Shown here piece by piece: positions 5,306 through 50,089 of a stretch of DNA of 64,000 nt. The notes beneath the pieces were generated by a model that worked only from the letters and a program-made list of their open reading frames with translations, was not told where the DNA came from and did not search any database. The translations under genes and the position numbers were made by a program. The stretch's first letter is position 1, and each line of letters opens with the position of its first letter. The DNA is taken from assembly GCF_034522235.1 (NCBI RefSeq), contig NZ_JAXHLN010000003.1:806001-870000 (forward strand), read 5' to 3'. The stretch comes from Thiohalophilus sp. (lineage in GTDB: Bacteria > Pseudomonadota > Gammaproteobacteria > UBA6429 > Thiohalophilaceae).

Positions 5306-5638
5306 AGTTGGCAGTTGACAGCAAAATACCTGAATCAGAATTTTCTGCCATCTGCCATCTGCCATCTGCCATCTGCCATCTGCCATCTGCCAACTTCTAT
5401 TTGTGGGAGCGGGCTTCGACCGCGGCGGTGCCGGATTCGGCAGTCGCGCCCGTGGGGCGCTCCTACAGAATCACTATTCAGCCATAGGTCACATTGGCGA
5501 AGCCTATGTGACGATTCCCCCGGTCGATTGTCAGGTAGCGCTGCGCGCAACCTGGCCTACACAATTTTTGCCAACTGCCAACTGCCAACTGCCAACTGCC
5601 AACTGCCAACTGCCAACTGCCAACTGCCAACTGTCAAC
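5306..5638. repeat. composite palindrome/heptamer element, copy 1
   Basis: The gap 5065-5720 has no convincing gene. From 5306 it holds AGTTGGCAG, then six TGCCATC units and one TGCCAAC (5346-5394). A 66-bp palindrome-ended block follows (GTGGGAGCGG at 5403 to CGCTCCTAC near 5466), then a CAGGTAGCGC/GCAACCTG hairpin (5532-5554) and nine TGCCAAC units plus TGTCAAC (5569-5638). The same order recurs near 9.5 and 12 kb. The right arm runs directly into a PHO-box-like site. Confidence 0.8.
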
Positions 5639-5655
5639 TGTCTTTATTCTGTCAT
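5638..5655 (+). promoter_or_regulatory. candidate PHO box upstream of plcP-agt
   Basis: CTGTCTT-TATT-CTGTCAT: two 7-base half-sites separated by a 4-base AT-rich spacer, the geometry of the PhoB box consensus (CTGTCAT-N4-CTGTCAT). It lies 65 bases before the plcP start. A further CTGTCAA lies directly upstream, but in 7-base rather than 11-base phase, because it belongs to the heptamer tract. No good -10 element is obvious. Confidence 0.6.
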
Positions 5656-5720
5656 CGGCGTTTCGCGGCATTGTCACACTGACCCCCTAGGCTTGTTAAA
5701 AACCAGCCGAGGTCAGGATA

Positions 5721-6533
5721 ATGAATTCCGTCCACCAGCTCCGTCCCCTCCGGTACCGCAGTGTCTGGTTGTCCGATATCCATCTGGGTTATCGTGGCTG
5801 CAAGGCCGAGTATCTGATTGATTTTCTCGACTCTGTGCAGTGTGAGTATCTGTTTCTGGTCGGTGACATTTTCGACTTGTGGTATATGCGCCGTAAAGGA
5901 CTCTATTGGCCGCAAAGTCATAATGATGTCATGCGCAAGATACTGGGCAAGGCCAAACACGGCACCAGGGTGGTGTATATCCCCGGTAATCACGATGAAG
6001 ATTTCCGGGAGCTGGATGGAATGGTATTTGGTAACATTTCAATCCATAACCGCTACATCCATGAAACGGCGGACAACAAGCGCCTGCTGATACTGCACGG
6101 GGATGAATTCGATAATGCCATCCGCTGTAGCAAACTCGTCGGGTATCTGGGTGAGAAGTCCTATGATGTGCTGCTGTATACCAACCGCTGTCTGAATGCC
6201 TTTCGTCGTCGTCTGGGGTTCCCGTACTGGTCTATTTCCACGTTTCTTAAAAGCAACGTCAAAAACGCGGTTAATGTGATTCACGATTTCGAGCAGGCCG
6301 TCGCCAACGAGGCCCGGCGCGCCGGGGTGGATGGCCTGGTTTGCGGTCACATTCATCATGCCGAGATTCGCCAGATCGGTGAGGTGCTGTACTGTAATGA
6401 TGGCGACTGGGTGGAAAACTGTACGGCGATGGTCGAGCATCGGGACGGCATGCTGGAGATCCTGCACTGGTCCGATGTGGTCAGGCCCATCAAGCAACAT
6501 CCGGTCACGGATGCGGACAAGAAGATCGCATGA
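5721..6533 (+). CDS. plcP: PlcP-type metallophosphoesterase (phospholipase C for lipid remodelling)
   Basis: A 270-residue calcineurin-like phosphoesterase with SDIHLG (about 18-23), GDIFDLW, YIPGNHDE, HGDEFD and GHIHHAEI near 215, giving a complete two-metal site. General annotation would be UDP-2,3-diacylglucosamine diphosphatase-like. The fuller sequence (YRGCKAEYLIDFL, YWPQSHNDV, GDWVENCTA) instead resembles the PlcP enzymes that cleave phospholipids to diacylglycerol under phosphate limitation. Its stop overlaps the glycosyltransferase start by 4 bases, the known plcP-agt arrangement. A PHO-box-like site lies upstream. AGGtcAGGA precedes ATG 5721. An LpxH role remains the alternative. 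Confidence 0.75.
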   Translation: MNSVHQLRPLRYRSVWLSDIHLGYRGCKAEYLIDFLDSVQCEYLFLVGDIFDLWYMRRKGLYWPQSHNDVMRKILGKAKHGTRVVYIPGNHDEDFRELDGMVFGNISIHNRYIHETADNKRLLILHGDEFDNAIRCSKLVGYLGEKSYDVLLYTNRCLNAFRRRLGFPYWSISTFLKSNVKNAVNVIHDFEQAVANEARRAGVDGLVCGHIHHAEIRQIGEVLYCNDGDWVENCTAMVEHRDGMLEILHWSDVVRPIKQHPVTDADKKIA

Positions 6534-7570
6534 GAATTGTCATCGCGACTGACGCCTGGGCGCCACAAACCAATGGCGTGGTGACAACACTGAAAACGAC
6601 CCGGCGTATCCTGGAACAATCGGGTCATGAAGTGGCCATGATTACCCCCGAACCGTTCAAAACCGTGTCGTTGCCGACCTATCCGGATATCCGGCTGGCG
6701 CTGTTTCCCTATCGGCGGATCGCCGCCATGCTGGATGCGTATGCCCTGGAGGCGATCCATATCGCGACCGAAGGTCCGGTGGGGATGGCGGTGCGGCGTT
6801 ATTGCCGGCGGCGGAAACTCAAATTCACGACGTCCTATCATACCCAGTTTCCCGAGTATCTGCGCCTGCGCCTGCCGGTTCCCCTGCGTCTCAGCTATGC
6901 CTTTTTTAAATGGTTTCACGGTCCAGCCGAGCGTACCCTGGTGCCAACGCCGTCCATGCAGCAGCGTTTGCTGGAGCACGGTTTCACGCATGTCGAGGTG
7001 TGGGGACGGGGGGTGGACGTGAATCTGTTTCGACCCTATGGCAAGGATTACCTGCACGAGGCGCGGCCTGTTTTCGTCTATGTCGGCCGGGTGGCGGTGG
7101 AAAAGAATATCGAGGCCTTCCTGTCGCTGGATCTGCCGGGTACGCAATACGTCGTGGGCGATGGACCGGACAGGGCAATGCTGGAGGAAAAATACCCGCA
7201 AGTCGTCTTCACCGGCTTTCGTTATGGCGAGGAACTGGCGCGAACCATCGCCGCCAGTGACGTGTTTGTCTTCCCCAGCCTGACCGATACGTTCGGTCTG
7301 GTGATGCTGGAGGCGATGGCCTGCGGCGTACCGGTGGCCGCCTATCCGGTGACCGGACCGAAGGATGTGGTGATCGACGGAGTCACCGGTTGTCTGGACG
7401 AGGATCTTGGTCGGGCCGCGAAGCGGGCACTGGCGATCAACCCGGAAAATCCCCGCGATTACAGTTTATCCCATTCCTGGCATCAGGCCACGGATCAGTT
7501 TTATGCCAATCTGGCGCCCAATACCGGGGCGGAACCCGCGGTACAAAAAACGGCTTCGAGCCTGAAGTAA
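6530..7570 (+). CDS. agt: GT4 glycosyltransferase, Agt-like diacylglycerol glycosyltransferase
   Basis: A 346-residue GT-B fold glycosyltransferase of family 4. The N-terminus MRIVIATDAWAPQTNGVV and the C-terminal donor-site segment SLTDTFGLVMLEAMACGVPV are characteristic. No membrane span is seen, so it is probably peripheral. Translationally coupled (ATGA overlap) to plcP, it should act on the diacylglycerol that PlcP releases and make a glycolipid that replaces phospholipid. The sugar (glucose, galactose or glucuronate) cannot be read from sequence. It ends 20 bases from the convergent GT4 gene. Agt is inferred from context; the GT4 call is firm. Confidence 0.75.
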   Translation: MRIVIATDAWAPQTNGVVTTLKTTRRILEQSGHEVAMITPEPFKTVSLPTYPDIRLALFPYRRIAAMLDAYALEAIHIATEGPVGMAVRRYCRRRKLKFTTSYHTQFPEYLRLRLPVPLRLSYAFFKWFHGPAERTLVPTPSMQQRLLEHGFTHVEVWGRGVDVNLFRPYGKDYLHEARPVFVYVGRVAVEKNIEAFLSLDLPGTQYVVGDGPDRAMLEEKYPQVVFTGFRYGEELARTIAASDVFVFPSLTDTFGLVMLEAMACGVPVAAYPVTGPKDVVIDGVTGCLDEDLGRAAKRALAINPENPRDYSLSHSWHQATDQFYANLAPNTGAEPAVQKTASSLK

Positions 7571-7590
7571 TTTCTCTCACGCCGGTTTGT

Positions 7591-8793
7591 TCAGGTGGTC
7601 GAACGTTCGGTTTGCGCAGAATCGGCGGCTGATGTGGCAAAGGTGTCGATCGTGTGCCGATAGAGATCCGCCAGGGAGTGTGCCAGGGCACTGTGCGACC
7701 ATTCGTGCACATAGTCCTGACCTTCGCGGCTCATGCGCCGTTGCAGCTCGGGCAACGCCAGTACCTGTTGTACCGTGGCGGCAAACTGATCCACGTCCTC
7801 CTTGACGACCAGCGCGCCACGCTGGGGCAGGAGAATATCCCGCGTCCCCAGTTCAGCGGTCGAGACCACCGGTATGCCGCAGGCCATTGCCTCAAGCAGT
7901 ACCAGCCCCTGGGTTTCCGTGCGCGAAGAGAACACGAATACATTGCCGGCACGGTAACAGTCAACCAGCGTCGTGTTGCGATCCAGGTAGCCGACAAAGC
8001 GGATATTATCCCGGGTCCCCAGTTTGTCGCTCAGTTGTTTTAAATGCTCGAGCGCGGGCCCTTCCCCGGCAATCACGAGCAGGGTCTTTGGCAATTGTTG
8101 TAATACCCGGTGGTGTACGTGCAGCAGAAAGTCGATGTTTTTCTCGTGGCCGATGCGCCCGATATGCACCATCACCGGACGGTCCGGTTCGATATGATGG
8201 CGCTTGCGAAAGGCGTGTCCGTCACCGCGCGAGAAACGTTCGGGATCGATGCCCGTGGGCAGGATCCGGGTTGGGAGTTGAATGTGATAGTCGCGAATTA
8301 CCTTGAGCATGGCGCTGGAGGGGACGATCAACCCCTGCAGGTTATGGCACTGCCGGCGGGTTATAAAGCGGATCAGGGGACGAAATATCCGGCGGGGAAT
8401 CAACGGCACATAGTTGTGCATGTATTCCTCGAAATGGGTGTGATAGGTCTCGATACAGGGGATGCCCAGTCGGCGAGCCATGCGCTTACCACTGCGGTGG
8501 GCGGCAAACGGCGTCTGGATATGGATCAGATCGATCGGCTTTTCCCGATGCAGTCTGGCAATTTCCCGATCCACGGCGGTAACGGACATCAACCGGTCCT
8601 CGGGATCAAACGGTACCGGGCGCGCCTGGATACGCGAAATACCTGCCTGGGCGGGATCCTCAGCGCTGTAACGGGGGGCAATCAGCCGGATATCGTGTCC
8701 CAATGCCTGCAGGCTGTCACGAAAAGTCTGTATGGAAGTGGAGACGCCGTTGATGCGGGGAAAATACACATCGGAAACCATCACTATCCGCAT
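7591..8793 (-). CDS. second GT4 glycosyltransferase, probable glycolipid synthesis
   Basis: A 400-residue GT-B enzyme starting MRIVMVSDVYFPRINGVST, with SSRTETQGLVLLEAMACG near residue 295 as the nucleotide-sugar site. It resembles GDP-mannose-type and diacylglycerol glycosyltransferases. It follows the PAP2 gene by 12 bases on the same strand, so the two form an operon, and it converges on the Agt-like gene. With a PHO-box array ahead of the operon, I infer a role in making or extending non-phosphorus glycolipids. It is clearly distinct from its neighbour in length and sequence, so this is not a recent duplication. Confidence 0.75.
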   Translation of the reverse strand: MRIVMVSDVYFPRINGVSTSIQTFRDSLQALGHDIRLIAPRYSAEDPAQAGISRIQARPVPFDPEDRLMSVTAVDREIARLHREKPIDLIHIQTPFAAHRSGKRMARRLGIPCIETYHTHFEEYMHNYVPLIPRRIFRPLIRFITRRQCHNLQGLIVPSSAMLKVIRDYHIQLPTRILPTGIDPERFSRGDGHAFRKRHHIEPDRPVMVHIGRIGHEKNIDFLLHVHHRVLQQLPKTLLVIAGEGPALEHLKQLSDKLGTRDNIRFVGYLDRNTTLVDCYRAGNVFVFSSRTETQGLVLLEAMACGIPVVSTAELGTRDILLPQRGALVVKEDVDQFAATVQQVLALPELQRRMSREGQDYVHEWSHSALAHSLADLYRHTIDTFATSAADSAQTERSTT

Positions 8794-8805
8794 ACCACCG
8801 CCCGC

Positions 8806-9348
8806 TTAGCCGCTTATGGTGAATGAGAGCAGGGCAAGGCCGCCGCCGAGCAGGGCGCCGCACAACACGTCAGTCGGATAGTGCAGGGCAAGGACCACCC
8901 GGGACAGGGCCACCAGTGCAGTAAACGGCAGCAGGACGATGGCCAGTTCGGGGTAATAATGCAGGGCCACCAGGGTAAAGGAGACCGCATGCATGGTGTG
9001 TCCGGAGGGGAAGCTGTACTGATCCAGCGGGGCCGTTCCCAGCAGCAGGTCCTGTTTGACCACACAGGGCCGAGGCCGTTCGGTGACGGATTTGATGGCC
9101 TTGTACAGGGCCAGTGCCAGTGCCCCGACGATTGACATATGCAGCGCTGCCCCCAGTGCCTGGCTGCCATAGATCAACGGTAACAACGCGATCAGCGTGT
9201 ACCAGAAAACCCCGTCACCTAGCCGACTGATAAAGGCAAACAGCGACTTGATGACCCGGATATGGCTGGCACGGTTGAACTGGCTGCACAGGGCCAGCTC
9301 ATATGCCACCATGCGTTTGATAAACAGACTGTGGCGTATGGCATTCAT
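8806..9348 (-). CDS. PAP2-family membrane phosphatase
   Basis: Integral-membrane phosphatase of the PAP2 superfamily, about 180 residues with several hydrophobic helices. All three signature motifs are present: KSVTERPRP, SFPSGH and SRVVLALHYPTD. Likely substrates are phosphatidate or other lipid phosphates, giving diacylglycerol. I place the start at ATG 9348 rather than the upstream GTG at 9393, because the PHO-box array ends 5 bases from that GTG and a promoter there would leave the GTG outside the transcript. First gene of an operon with the GT4 at 7591-8793. Confidence 0.75.
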   Translation of the reverse strand: MNAIRHSLFIKRMVAYELALCSQFNRASHIRVIKSLFAFISRLGDGVFWYTLIALLPLIYGSQALGAALHMSIVGALALALYKAIKSVTERPRPCVVKQDLLLGTAPLDQYSFPSGHTMHAVSFTLVALHYYPELAIVLLPFTALVALSRVVLALHYPTDVLCGALLGGGLALLSFTISG

Positions 9349-9397
9349 AATCAGGATACTCTTTATATAATCCTGCCAGTAAGGATGGGACACGCAG

Positions 9398-9437
9398 ATG
9401 ACAAAACCCTGACAGCCCGATGAACGTTTTATGACCG
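9398..9437 (-). promoter_or_regulatory. array of four PHO half-sites upstream of PAP2-GT4 operon
   Basis: On the minus strand the sequence reads CGGTCAT-AAAA-CGTTCAT, CGGG, CTGTCAG-GGTT-TTGTCAT. That is four 7-base elements at a strict 11-base spacing, the geometry of tandem PhoB binding. The two promoter-proximal elements fit the consensus best. It lies 50-90 bases before the preferred PAP2 start, with AT-rich TTATATAAA between that could supply a -10. Confidence 0.65.
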
Positions 9438-9469: not shown

Positions 9470-9768
9470 AGTTGGCAGCTGTAGGAGCGGGCTTCGACCG
9501 CGACCGGTGCCAGATTCGGCAGTCGCGCCCGTGGGGCGCTCCCACAGGCTCGCTATTTTGGTACGAAAGATATCTGACTCTCGCAGAGACGCAGAGTCCG
9601 CTGAGGATTAAAAAGCGGGTGTTTCTCAGCGCCCTGGCGCCTCTGCGAGAGATAACAGGCACATTGTCGACATGTGGAATGCCAGATAGCGCTGCGCGCA
9701 ACCTGGCCTACAATGGTTCTGCCAACTGCCAACTGCCAACTGCCAACTGCCAACTGCCAACTGCCAAC
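9470..9768. repeat. composite palindrome/heptamer element, copy 2
   Basis: Fills the gap between the PHO array and the next gene. It begins AGTTGGCAG (9470), then the palindrome-ended block GTAGGAGCGG...CGCTCCCAC (9481-9546). A hairpin CTCTCGCAGAGACGCAGAG with its inverted partner CTCTGCGAGAG follows (about 9578-9652), then CCAGATAGCGC...GCAACCTGG (9682-9706) and seven TGCCAAC units (9720-9768). Same order as copies 1 and 3. Confidence 0.8.
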
Positions 9769-9849
9769 TGCAACGTACAGTGCTAGAATACCCCAATACA
9801 TATGAAATCCTGAACCACGATCAGGAGAGCGGGATGCGAAGAGGACACT

Positions 9850-11878: not shown

Positions 11879-12130
11879 AGTTGGCAGTTGGCAGTTGGCA
11901 GAAATTCTAACCCGGGTTTTTACTGTCAACTGCCATCTGATGACTGCAAACTTTCTTTTCTGCCATCTGCCAACTGCCAACTTCTATTTGTGGGAGCGGG
12001 CTTCGACCGCGACGGTGCCAGATTCGGCAGTCGCGCTCGCGGGGCGCTCCTACAGACTCACTATTCAGGTCGATAGGGGAAATGCCAGGTAGCGCTGCGC
12101 GCAACCTGGCCTACACGATTTTTGCCAACT
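11879..12130. repeat. composite palindrome/heptamer element, copy 3
   Basis: The gap 11773-12157 contains no gene. Three AGTTGGC units (11879-11899) form the left arm. Inside lie CTGCCATC/TGCCAAC units (about 11959-11981), the palindrome-ended block GTGGGAGCGG...CGCTCCTAC (11990-12053), the hairpin CCAGGTAGCGC...GCAACCTGG (12085-12109) and TGCCAACT as right arm (12123-12130). An AACTTAG/CACTCAG heptamer tract continues to 12175. Confidence 0.8.
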
Positions 12131-12175
12131 TAGAACTTAGCACTCAGAACTTAGCACTCAGCACTCAGCACTGAT
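12127..12175. repeat. heptamer tract AACTTAG/CACTCAG entering the UDG gene
   Basis: Seven consecutive 7-base units: AACTTAG twice, CACTCAG, AACTTAG, CACTCAG twice, then CACTGAT. The last 18 bases are the 3' end of the uracil-DNA glycosylase gene and encode its final residues and stop. Confidence 0.85.
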
Positions 12176-12772
12176 CTTTTTCCACGCCGGATGGCGTTTG
12201 ATCGCCTGCAGGGCCTTGTTTAACAGAGTGATGCCCGGTTCGGTACGGTGCCAGGTGGAGGCGCCGGAGGGGTGCGGAAGAGGGATGATGTCCCGCATCT
12301 TGCCCTCCACGGCGATTCGATGTCGTCGGCCGATGATCTCATCCAGTTTGTTCACGGCCATAAACTGGCTGATCGCCAGTTTGCCGATCGGAATCAACAG
12401 CTGCGGTTGCAGCAGTTCGACTTCGGCTTCCATCCAGCTTCGGCAATTGGCGATTTCTTCTTTGCCCGGGACCCGATCCCCGCCTCTGGCGAGTTTTCCC
12501 GGAAAGCAGCGACACACCGCGGCCATGTAAACCCGTTGCCGAAACGCCTCTTCGTCCAGGCCGATCCGTTCAAACCAGCCAAACAGGGTCTTGCCGGCGG
12601 TCCAGGCGAAGGGGCGATGCAGTTCGATCTCGCGATTGCCCGGTGCCTGACCGATTAACATCACCGGCGAAGCGACTGGCTCACCGGTGACCGGCGGGCC
12701 GTGCATTTGGGGACAACGCCGGCAGCGACGCAGGCGGCGCTGATGTTGTTGCAAGGTCTCGAAAACGGTCAT
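12158..12772 (-). CDS. uracil-DNA glycosylase superfamily protein (family 4-like, Fe-S)
   Basis: A 204-residue DNA-repair glycosylase. Motif A is GQAPGNREIE and motif B is HPSGAST. Four cysteines (CRRC near 17-20, one in AAVCRCF near 86 and one in IANCRSW near 105) have the spacing of the 4Fe-4S cluster ligands of family 4 enzymes. It should remove uracil from DNA. GQAPG in place of GEAPG is a mild deviation. The last residues (SAEC) are encoded in a heptamer repeat, so the C-terminus may be recent. Confidence 0.75.
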   Translation of the reverse strand: MTVFETLQQHQRRLRRCRRCPQMHGPPVTGEPVASPVMLIGQAPGNREIELHRPFAWTAGKTLFGWFERIGLDEEAFRQRVYMAAVCRCFPGKLARGGDRVPGKEEIANCRSWMEAEVELLQPQLLIPIGKLAISQFMAVNKLDEIIGRRHRIAVEGKMRDIIPLPHPSGASTWHRTEPGITLLNKALQAIKRHPAWKKISAEC

Positions 12773-12858
12773 GAAGTTCTCACCAAAATGTCACAAGCCG
12801 GACATATTGCCACTCTACAGTTTTCCCGTAACTTCACAACATCGGTAAGGAGAGTGTT

Positions 12859-13119
12859 ATGTCCCGCTATGCATTGGTTTCGATTGAAAAAAGCCCGCCG
12901 CCGCAAGGCCAAAGTGGTGACAACTGGTACCGCTATGAGATTACCGGCGGTGCCGCGACGATTGTCGGATACCGGCGGGGAACGCTGGGCGAAACGCGGG
13001 TGGTGGCGCGGGAATGTGTCATGCACCTTAACAGTCAGCTGGCTGGTATGCCCTCCAGTGAATTTGTTCGCCGCGCCGCCAATCCGGTGGCGGATGTGGA
13101 CCCGCTGGTGGCCGCCTGA
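12859..13119 (+). CDS. conserved hypothetical small protein
   Basis: An 86-residue soluble protein (MSRYALVSIEKSPPPQGQ) with no recognised domain. A good ribosome site AAGGAGAG precedes ATG 12859. It faces the quinone reductase gene and ends 10 bases from it. An 8-bp-stem hairpin (GCCTGATC/GATCAGGC, 13114-13135) spans both stop codons but lacks a T-run on either strand. Confidence 0.55.
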   Translation: MSRYALVSIEKSPPPQGQSGDNWYRYEITGGAATIVGYRRGTLGETRVVARECVMHLNSQLAGMPSSEFVRRAANPVADVDPLVAA

Positions 13120-49348: not shown

Positions 49349-50089
49349 ATGTCACAAGGCGATCTGGTCGCGCACCGGGGCTATCCCTACCGTTATCCCG
49401 AGAACAGTCTGGCCGGGGTACAGGCGGCACTGGCGGTCGGGGCGCGTTATGTGGAAGTGGACGTGCAACTGAGCCGCGATGGTATCCCGCTGCTGTTTCA
49501 CGATCGCGATCTGCGACGCCTGTGTCACCAGCCCGGTGCCGTCCATGATTACGCGTGGCGTCAACTGCAAAAATTTATCCTGTATGGGGAGGCCGATCAG
49601 CCGTTGCAGCTTGCCCGGGCGCCGCTGGCGGTGCTGAGCGATCTGGTGGCGGTGATCAAAACGGCACCGGCGGCGCGTTTCTTCATCGAGCTCAAGCGGG
49701 TGGCGGTGGCGCAGTTCGGGGCGACGGCAGTGGTGGACGCGGTGCTGCCGATCCTGCAGCCGGTGGCCGGGCAGTGCTGCGTCATCTCCTACAATCTGCC
49801 GGCCCTGCAGCAGGTGCGACAGCGTTGTGAGCTGCCGATCGGGGTGGTGATTGATGAGTGGGCGGGGCGCGCGGATCCGGCCATCGTCGAACTGCAGCCC
49901 GAGTTTCTGTTCTGCAATCTCTCTTCATTGCCGGCCGATGAGCCGGTGCAGTTGCCCGGCGCCAGGTTGGCGGTGTTTGAAACCGTGGATCCCGGGCAGG
50001 CGCGTCGGCTCATGGCACAGGGCGTGGATCTGGTGGAAACCTTCGCCATCGGCGAGATGCGTCGACAACTGGAACCGGCAGGCGTCTGA
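49349..50089 (+). CDS. glycerophosphodiester phosphodiesterase
   Basis: A 246-residue GDPD: LVAHRGYPYRYPENSLAG (catalytic HRG and ENS), VEVDVQLSRDGIPLLFHD (metal-binding E-D and catalytic HD), FFIELKR and the late motif DLVETFA. No signal peptide, so it is cytosolic, GlpQ2/UgpQ-like. It cleaves glycerophosphodiesters to glycerol-3-phosphate and an alcohol. The GlpD-like gene begins 5 bases later; the two form an operon. Confidence 0.88.
   Translation: MSQGDLVAHRGYPYRYPENSLAGVQAALAVGARYVEVDVQLSRDGIPLLFHDRDLRRLCHQPGAVHDYAWRQLQKFILYGEADQPLQLARAPLAVLSDLVAVIKTAPAARFFIELKRVAVAQFGATAVVDAVLPILQPVAGQCCVISYNLPALQQVRQRCELPIGVVIDEWAGRADPAIVELQPEFLFCNLSSLPADEPVQLPGARLAVFETVDPGQARRLMAQGVDLVETFAIGEMRRQLEPAGV

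Follow-up and report, generated by a model that had tools for sequence, protein, structure and literature searches.

PlcP releases diacylglycerol (DAG) in bacteria, and Agt-type enzymes of glycosyltransferase family 4 (GT4) convert DAG to monoglucosyldiacylglycerol (MGDG) and glucuronic acid diacylglycerol (GADG). In two studies this activity and its dependence on plcP-agt were demonstrated in Pseudomonas aeruginosa and Methylosinus (PMC8528852, PMC9239053). A further source describes that DAG can arise either by dephosphorylation of phosphatidate or through PlcP, and that two bacteria with PlcP appear to be without a phosphatidate phosphatase (PMC4796936). Here we analyse a block of four genes, namely plcP, agt, a gene of the PAP2 phosphatase family and a second GT4 gene (called GT2 below), located in a 64,000-nucleotide stretch of the Thiohalophilus sp. 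genome (contig NZ_JAXHLN010000003.1, positions 806,001 to 870,000), which we call the window. Judged by their sequences, the four genes very likely serve to replace membrane lipids that contain phosphate with sugar lipids, and are probably switched on by phosphate shortage. Within the block the PAP2-GT4 pair looks like a conserved and undescribed second arm of the phosphate-saving lipid pathway.

In P. aeruginosa the plcP-agt1 operon (PA3219-PA3218) carries a Pho box like the PlcP-Agt operon of the window, and agt2 (PA0842) is a second phosphate-induced glycosyltransferase with a Pho box of its own; both MGDG and GADG were demonstrated there. These genes lie at two separate loci and a PAP2 gene is not mentioned in the accessible text, whereas the window holds one block with PAP2. 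By the published description, one Agt shares 41% identity with Agt1 and 35% with Agt2 (PMC8528852), while GT2 is 30% identical to the window agt and belongs to another branch. Among the six plcP contexts of marine isolates, type 2 (plcP followed by agt, with a predicted Pho box) is like the window and types 3 and 5 contain other glycosyltransferases, but unlike in the window no phosphatase beside plcP is mentioned in the main text (PMC4796936). Methylosinus and the USC-gamma methanotrophs also possess a plcP-agt operon like that of the window, and its knockout is described to lose GADG (PMC9239053). In the USCg_Taylor genome PlcP and Agt are 58% and 60% identical to those of the window; tblastn detected no PAP2, GT2 or agtL (a further GT4 family, see below) in the 9.3 kb around plcP-agt. 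The SAR11 enzyme GTcp is described as a GT4 with DAG as acceptor that accepts UDP-Glc, UDP-Gal and UDP-GlcA (PMC8231724); by this description it presumably belongs to the same clade as the window agt.

The plcP stop overlaps the agt start in the sequence ATGA at 6530-6533, confirming the coupling by a 4-base overlap that had been proposed earlier in a reading of the sequence alone (the sequence-only reading). PAP2 and GT2 form the convergent operon described in that reading, with PAP2 first and a gap of 12 nt before GT2. The stops of agt and GT2 converge at a distance of 20 nt, as read from the sequence. The longest open reading frame (ORF) for PAP2 starts with GTG at 9393, which falls inside the upstream PhoB array. 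The ATG at 9348 appears to be the more likely start, because in three of the six aligned orthologues (L044-L046) the matched part begins with MN there and because the GTG overlaps the array.

Table 1. Positions of the four genes and of the predicted PhoB sites in the window.
Feature	Position	Strand	Description
plcP	5721-6533	+	270 aa; Pfam Metallophos; calcineurin-like metallophosphoesterase, putative PlcP-type phospholipase C
agt	6530-7570	+	346 aa; Pfam GT4 domains; putative diacylglycerol glycosyltransferase
GT2 (second GT4)	7591-8793	-	400 aa; GT-B fold; Pfam GT4
PAP2 membrane phosphatase	8806-9348	-	180 aa; Pfam match and catalytic motifs
Predicted PhoB-box array before plcP	5638-5677	+	four half-sites CTGTCTT/CTGTCAT/GTTTCGC/TTGTCAC, 11-bp phase
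Predicted PhoB-box array before PAP2-GT4 operon	9387-9437	-	five half-sites, 11-bp phase

The block is flanked by two composite repeats of the same orientation (5402-5640 and 9480-9774), composed of one element of 78 bp, another of 23 bp (GCGCTGCGCGCAACCTGGCCTAC) and tandem CAACTGC units in 7-8 copies. A related but shorter third copy was found at 11959-12130. About 10 bp separate the end of the exact tandem repeat from the start of the plcP PhoB array.

The upstream regions were scored for phased half-sites with 11-bp spacing, using weights that we set around the consensus printed in PMC8528852, and 3000 dinucleotide shuffles served as the control. Before plcP the half-sites begin at 5638, 5649, 5660 and 5671, and before PAP2 they run from 9437 down to 9387. 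The scores of both arrays for three, four or five repeats were reached by 0/3000 shuffles; the two-repeat score was reached by 0/3000 for plcP and 2/3000 for PAP2. When both strands of the window were ranked with two, three or four repeats, the PAP2 array came first and the plcP array second. The PHO-box-like sequences that the sequence-only reading had noted upstream of both operons thus hold up, and their PhoB scores are significant in both regions. Genome-wide, the 18-bp pattern CTGTCATNNNNCTGTCAT with up to two mismatches was found at 32 sites, compared to 10 for the reversed control; the plcP site is one of only two sites with a single mismatch and the PAP2 site has two. Chance as the origin of the PHO-like sites was rejected from the shuffles with three to five repeats and from this genome count.

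Two of the 32 sites belong to the four-gene block, and 20 inspected stretches cover 23 of the other 30. Sites of this type stand directly before phoB, a PstS-family gene, pstC, the polyphosphate kinase gene ppk and an OlsF-like acyltransferase gene of the same genome. Several other sites lie inside genes, or before DabA, FHA, patatin and NTP transferase genes without a clear phosphate link, and these may be chance matches. The distance from the 18-bp site to the start is 65 bp for plcP and 49 bp for PAP2, near the 72, 76 and 70 bp of phoB, pstS and pstC, which was counted in favour of PhoB control. PhoB itself is encoded in the genome (350.8 bits in a profile search, cut-off 296.2), and with PhoB boxes before each of them both operons are predicted to be under PhoB control.

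Further sites of this kind were observed apart from the block. A third phased PhoB-like array (12766-12805, plus strand, four-repeat score 22.3) ranks next after the plcP and PAP2 arrays and their overlapping registers. It precedes an 86-codon ORF (12859-13119) whose ribosome site (AAGGAGAG) is good and which matches nothing in Pfam. The first half-site of the array shares bases with the start of a 204-aa ORF on the opposite strand (12158-12772). The OlsF-like gene encodes a bifunctional acyltransferase (L244:570-2279 on contig 3, start near 50078) that scored 366 bits, under the OlsF cut-off of 620, and has its Pho box 69 bp ahead of the start; from this box, an aminolipid arm may be part of the same phosphate response. 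A Pho-box-like site was also seen 58 bp before the longest-ORF start of a further response regulator gene with receiver and Trans_reg_C domains (contig 3:1720780-1721442, L201/L214).

Sequence comparisons support that the phosphoesterase is of the PlcP type and not LpxH. Two LpxH models gave 35 and 30 bits, compared to cut-offs of 134 and 190, and a separate true LpxH (300 bits) is encoded elsewhere in the genome. The motifs also differ, with GNHD and GDWVENC in the window protein and GNRD and GDWYEQG in the LpxH of the same genome. The reading as LpxH was rejected on these three grounds. The earlier assignment as PlcP is favoured on the strength of the profile scores and of the separate LpxH, not of a full phylogeny. 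The protein is 49-72% identical to 13 aligned relatives, and its gene lies together with agt behind a Pho box. Presumably it acts as a phospholipase C that releases DAG. A plasmid collection searched with PlcP gave 24 records, all below 60% identity.

For the window agt, identities of up to 61-62% to plcP-linked agt orthologues were found, and in the GT4 tree it falls into a clade of 17 largely plcP-linked GT4 genes (support 0.998), five of them the plcP-linked genes of titled records. The operon overlap, the GT4 domains and this clade support Agt as the partner of PlcP, as had been claimed earlier, and the enzyme would be expected to make MGDG and/or GADG. In the survey of the order (40 genomes) agt matches were found in 18 genomes, seven at 58-100% identity (Agt proper) and eleven at 34-40%; the nine of these eleven that were fetched are nearest to the agtL reference. 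The tree separated agt and agtL jointly from GT2 with a support of 0.999, and the monophyly of GT2 against a single outgroup paralogue was weak (0.30). We dropped the idea of GT2 as a simple replacement of Agt, as agtL was found beside many GT2/PAP2 genes without agt. The predicted structure of GT2 (predicted local distance difference test, pLDDT, 89) was nearest to MshA, sucrose-phosphate synthase and BshA (Z 42.1, 41.6 and 40.2), with PimB' lower (36.9).

To the order survey we added a class sample of 274 genomes, with match limits of E 1e-25 for plcP and PAP2, 1e-70 for GT2 and 1e-45 for agt. Matches to plcP, PAP2 and GT2 were found in 19, 21 and 20 genomes of the order, one GT2 match being no more than a paralogue of 31% identity in G038, a genome of the same genus. 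In 19 genomes PAP2 and GT2 lay side by side on one strand. The class sample contained plcP in 80 genomes, agt in 56, PAP2 in 40 and GT2 in 30. There plcP was present in 26 of the 30 GT2 genomes (p=4.7e-12) and 27 of the 40 PAP2 genomes (p=5e-8), and GT2 and PAP2 occurred together in 19 (p=3e-11). A GT4 gene (agt, agtL or GT2) was located within 2.5 kb of PAP2 in 20/21 order and 37/40 class genomes, 55/59 in the union; for plcP the same distance was found in 12/21 and 8/40. Pairs of plcP and agt without PAP2 also occur, as do PAP2-GT4 pairs without plcP, and each arm can therefore stand alone.

Clusters of plcP, two GT4 genes and PAP2 were found in 11 genomes beyond the window, in three layouts. 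Five are convergent as in the window (G007, G015, G029, G032, G149), five have the co-directional order agtL-plcP-PAP2-GT2 (G001, G021, G023, G024, G216) and one has plcP-agt-GT2 with a divergent PAP2 (G083). The proposal of the four genes as a unit is borne out by this recurrence, but the convergent orientation does not define the unit and is one of several layouts. We also inspected 80 titled plcP loci, from at least 586 confirmed relatives, many of them from Alpha- and Betaproteobacteria. Nine of the 80 carry GT2, PAP2 or agtL in the flanking sequence that was fetched. They include Thiohalobacter thiocyanaticus Hrh1, where plcP adjoins GT2, and Chromatium okenii, where agtL lies upstream of plcP. 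The titled loci overlap with the surveys in at least one case, as L079 is apparently the same contig as G007.

Orthologous operons were tested for Pho arrays at the fetched loci. A first test used 100 shuffles and p≤0.05; a second used 300 shuffles and p≤0.01, with more loci and agtL-led operons included and the window's own operons left outside. Operons were omitted if the upstream sequence was too short (G007 plcP, G009) or if the match began too deep inside the gene. In the first test significant arrays were detected in 30/42 plcP upstream regions and at 13/16 PAP2-led operons, and the forward strand scored above the reverse (p=0.00015 for plcP, p=0.0017 for PAP2-led operons). In the second test, genomes with plcP had arrays at 19/23 agtL-led, 11/12 PAP2-led, 6/7 GT2-led and 9/14 plcP-led operons. 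For operons led by agtL, PAP2 or GT2 this amounts to 36/42 with plcP in the genome, compared to 5/16 operons of all types in genomes without detected plcP (Fisher p=0.00012). Together with the arrays of the window, those at orthologous operons strengthen the predicted PhoB control of both operons.

PlcP, PAP2 and the two GT4 enzymes, encoded side by side behind the same type of promoter site, are most simply read as two sources of DAG that feed two glycolipid synthases. We consider such a PhoB-controlled lipid-remodelling module fairly probable. What the sequences document is the family of each gene, the predicted PhoB sites, the joint conservation and the predicted regulation in common. Under phosphate shortage PhoB would bind both arrays and switch on both operons. 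PlcP would then convert existing phospholipids to DAG and a phospho-head-group, and PAP2 would dephosphorylate phosphatidic acid from de novo synthesis to additional DAG. Agt and GT2 would each add one sugar to DAG, giving two phosphorus-free glycolipids, for example glucosyl- and glucuronosyl-DAG. In this scheme PhoB binding, the enzyme activities with their substrates and products, the acceptor of GT2 and both sugars are what we infer.

GT2 could instead add a second sugar to the Agt product and so form a diglycosyl-DAG, and the recurrence of agt/agtL-branch and GT2-branch GT4 genes together is consistent with this. However, plcP stands beside GT2 without an agt match at E≤1e-45 in G054, G060, G207 and G279 (no genome-wide search for weaker agtL copies was made in these), and the best NCBIfam model for GT2 is the alpha-monoglucosyl-DAG synthase Mgs (143 bits, under the cut-off of 400). 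We regard this alternative as unlikely.

The PAP2 protein has the catalytic motifs of its superfamily, KX6RP, PSGH and SRX5HX3D, in complete form. The invariant columns in an alignment of six orthologues were K86, R93, P94, PSGH 114-117, S149, R150, H156 and D160. Its predicted structure is helical (pLDDT 84), and by profile and Foldseek its nearest relatives are two lipid phosphatases, LpxE and B. subtilis PgpB; structure searches gave the folds of PAP2 and GT2 and indicated no substrate. PgpB, among the two best matches (Foldseek template modelling score 0.75, Z 18.6), would fit a phosphatase for phosphatidylglycerophosphate (PGP) that completes cardiolipin recycling, in which PlcP-type cleavage gives DAG and PGP and PAP2 converts PGP to phosphatidylglycerol and phosphate. 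The position of PAP2 directly behind plcP in the co-directional operons fits the same idea. Yet PAP2 is more often found beside a GT4 without a nearby plcP, as would be expected of a DAG supplier more than of an enzyme that clears away the PlcP product, and 10 of the 40 class genomes with PAP2 keep PAP2-GT4 with no plcP detected; a role in cardiolipin recycling seems distinctly unlikely. PAP2 might also free phosphate from another lipid phosphate, such as the lipid A 1-phosphate as LpxE does or undecaprenyl diphosphate as SepP does, and be linked to the glycolipids by regulation only. A. aeolicus LpxE is the top profile match in the PDB and has the top Z of 19.1, within 1 of human G6PC1 (18.9) and PgpB, and among the NCBIfam models SepP scores highest (62 bits). 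The curated cut-offs are far off, however (LpxE 23 of 177 bits, SepP 62 of 250), and the frequent PAP2-GT4 pairing is left unexplained, so we find this quite improbable. That an ordinary plcP-agt operon lies beside an unrelated PAP2-GT4 operon by chance is highly improbable, because the clusters recur and the Pho arrays are common to both operons, even though the pairs are on different contigs or far apart in many genomes.

Several results weigh against the module with two DAG sources and two synthases. The closest solved relatives of PAP2 have lipid A or PGP as substrate, the Z score of human glucose-6-phosphatase is just as high, and the best NCBIfam model is, below its cut-off, an undecaprenyl-diphosphatase. 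Twelve of the 42 plcP upstream regions were without a significant array. A cruder Pho test, the best match to a 14-position consensus in 320 bp upstream compared with approximate shuffles, gave only a small excess (mean 10.3 vs 9.3 for plcP, 10.3 vs 9.4 for PAP2) and few individual matches; it took no account of the 11-bp phasing and was superseded by the phased score. In the class sample just a fifth of the PAP2 genes lie near plcP, and PAP2-GT4 pairs without detected plcP occur in 3/21 PAP2 genomes of the order besides the ten of the class. Because such pairs exist, mostly without a Pho array there, the PAP2-GT4 pair may have a phosphate-independent role. Finally, G038, the sole other genome of the same genus surveyed, gave no match to plcP, agt or PAP2, which suggests that genes were gained or lost within the genus.

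The sequence-only reading had put the arrangement forward as apparently undescribed as a unit. This must be narrowed, since plcP-agt with Pho boxes is already known, and two phosphate-controlled glycosyltransferases in one bacterium, with two glycolipids, are published for P. aeruginosa (PMC8528852). What stands as new relative to the literature searched is the conserved pairing with a PAP2 gene that follows Pho boxes, together with the GT4 families GT2 and agtL; none of these was found in the open-licence text consulted. No paper on PlcP with PAP2, with or without a glycosyltransferase, was found in open-licence PMC text (figures and supplements excluded), and in wider searches of open-licence PMC literature none of the abstract openings announced a PAP2 gene in this pathway in proteobacteria.

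More generally, Gammaproteobacteria might possess, besides PlcP, another source of DAG for glycolipids that does not depend on it and is controlled by PhoB. This would be a dedicated PAP2 paired with a GT4 from any one of agt, agtL and GT2, three families that could stand in for one another. The pair would work on its own in some genomes and be joined to plcP in others. We put this forward tentatively, at slightly less than an even chance. If true, pathway maps with PlcP as the main source of DAG would apply just to lineages without the PAP2-GT4 pair. The block would extend the phosphate-saving lipid pathway of bacteria by another family of glycosyltransferases and by a conserved phosphatase that shares the predicted regulator. 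This could be a reason why some bacteria might lose their phosphorus-free lipids on deletion of plcP and others might not, and PAP2-GT2 and agtL would be markers for predicting glycolipid making in Gammaproteobacteria.

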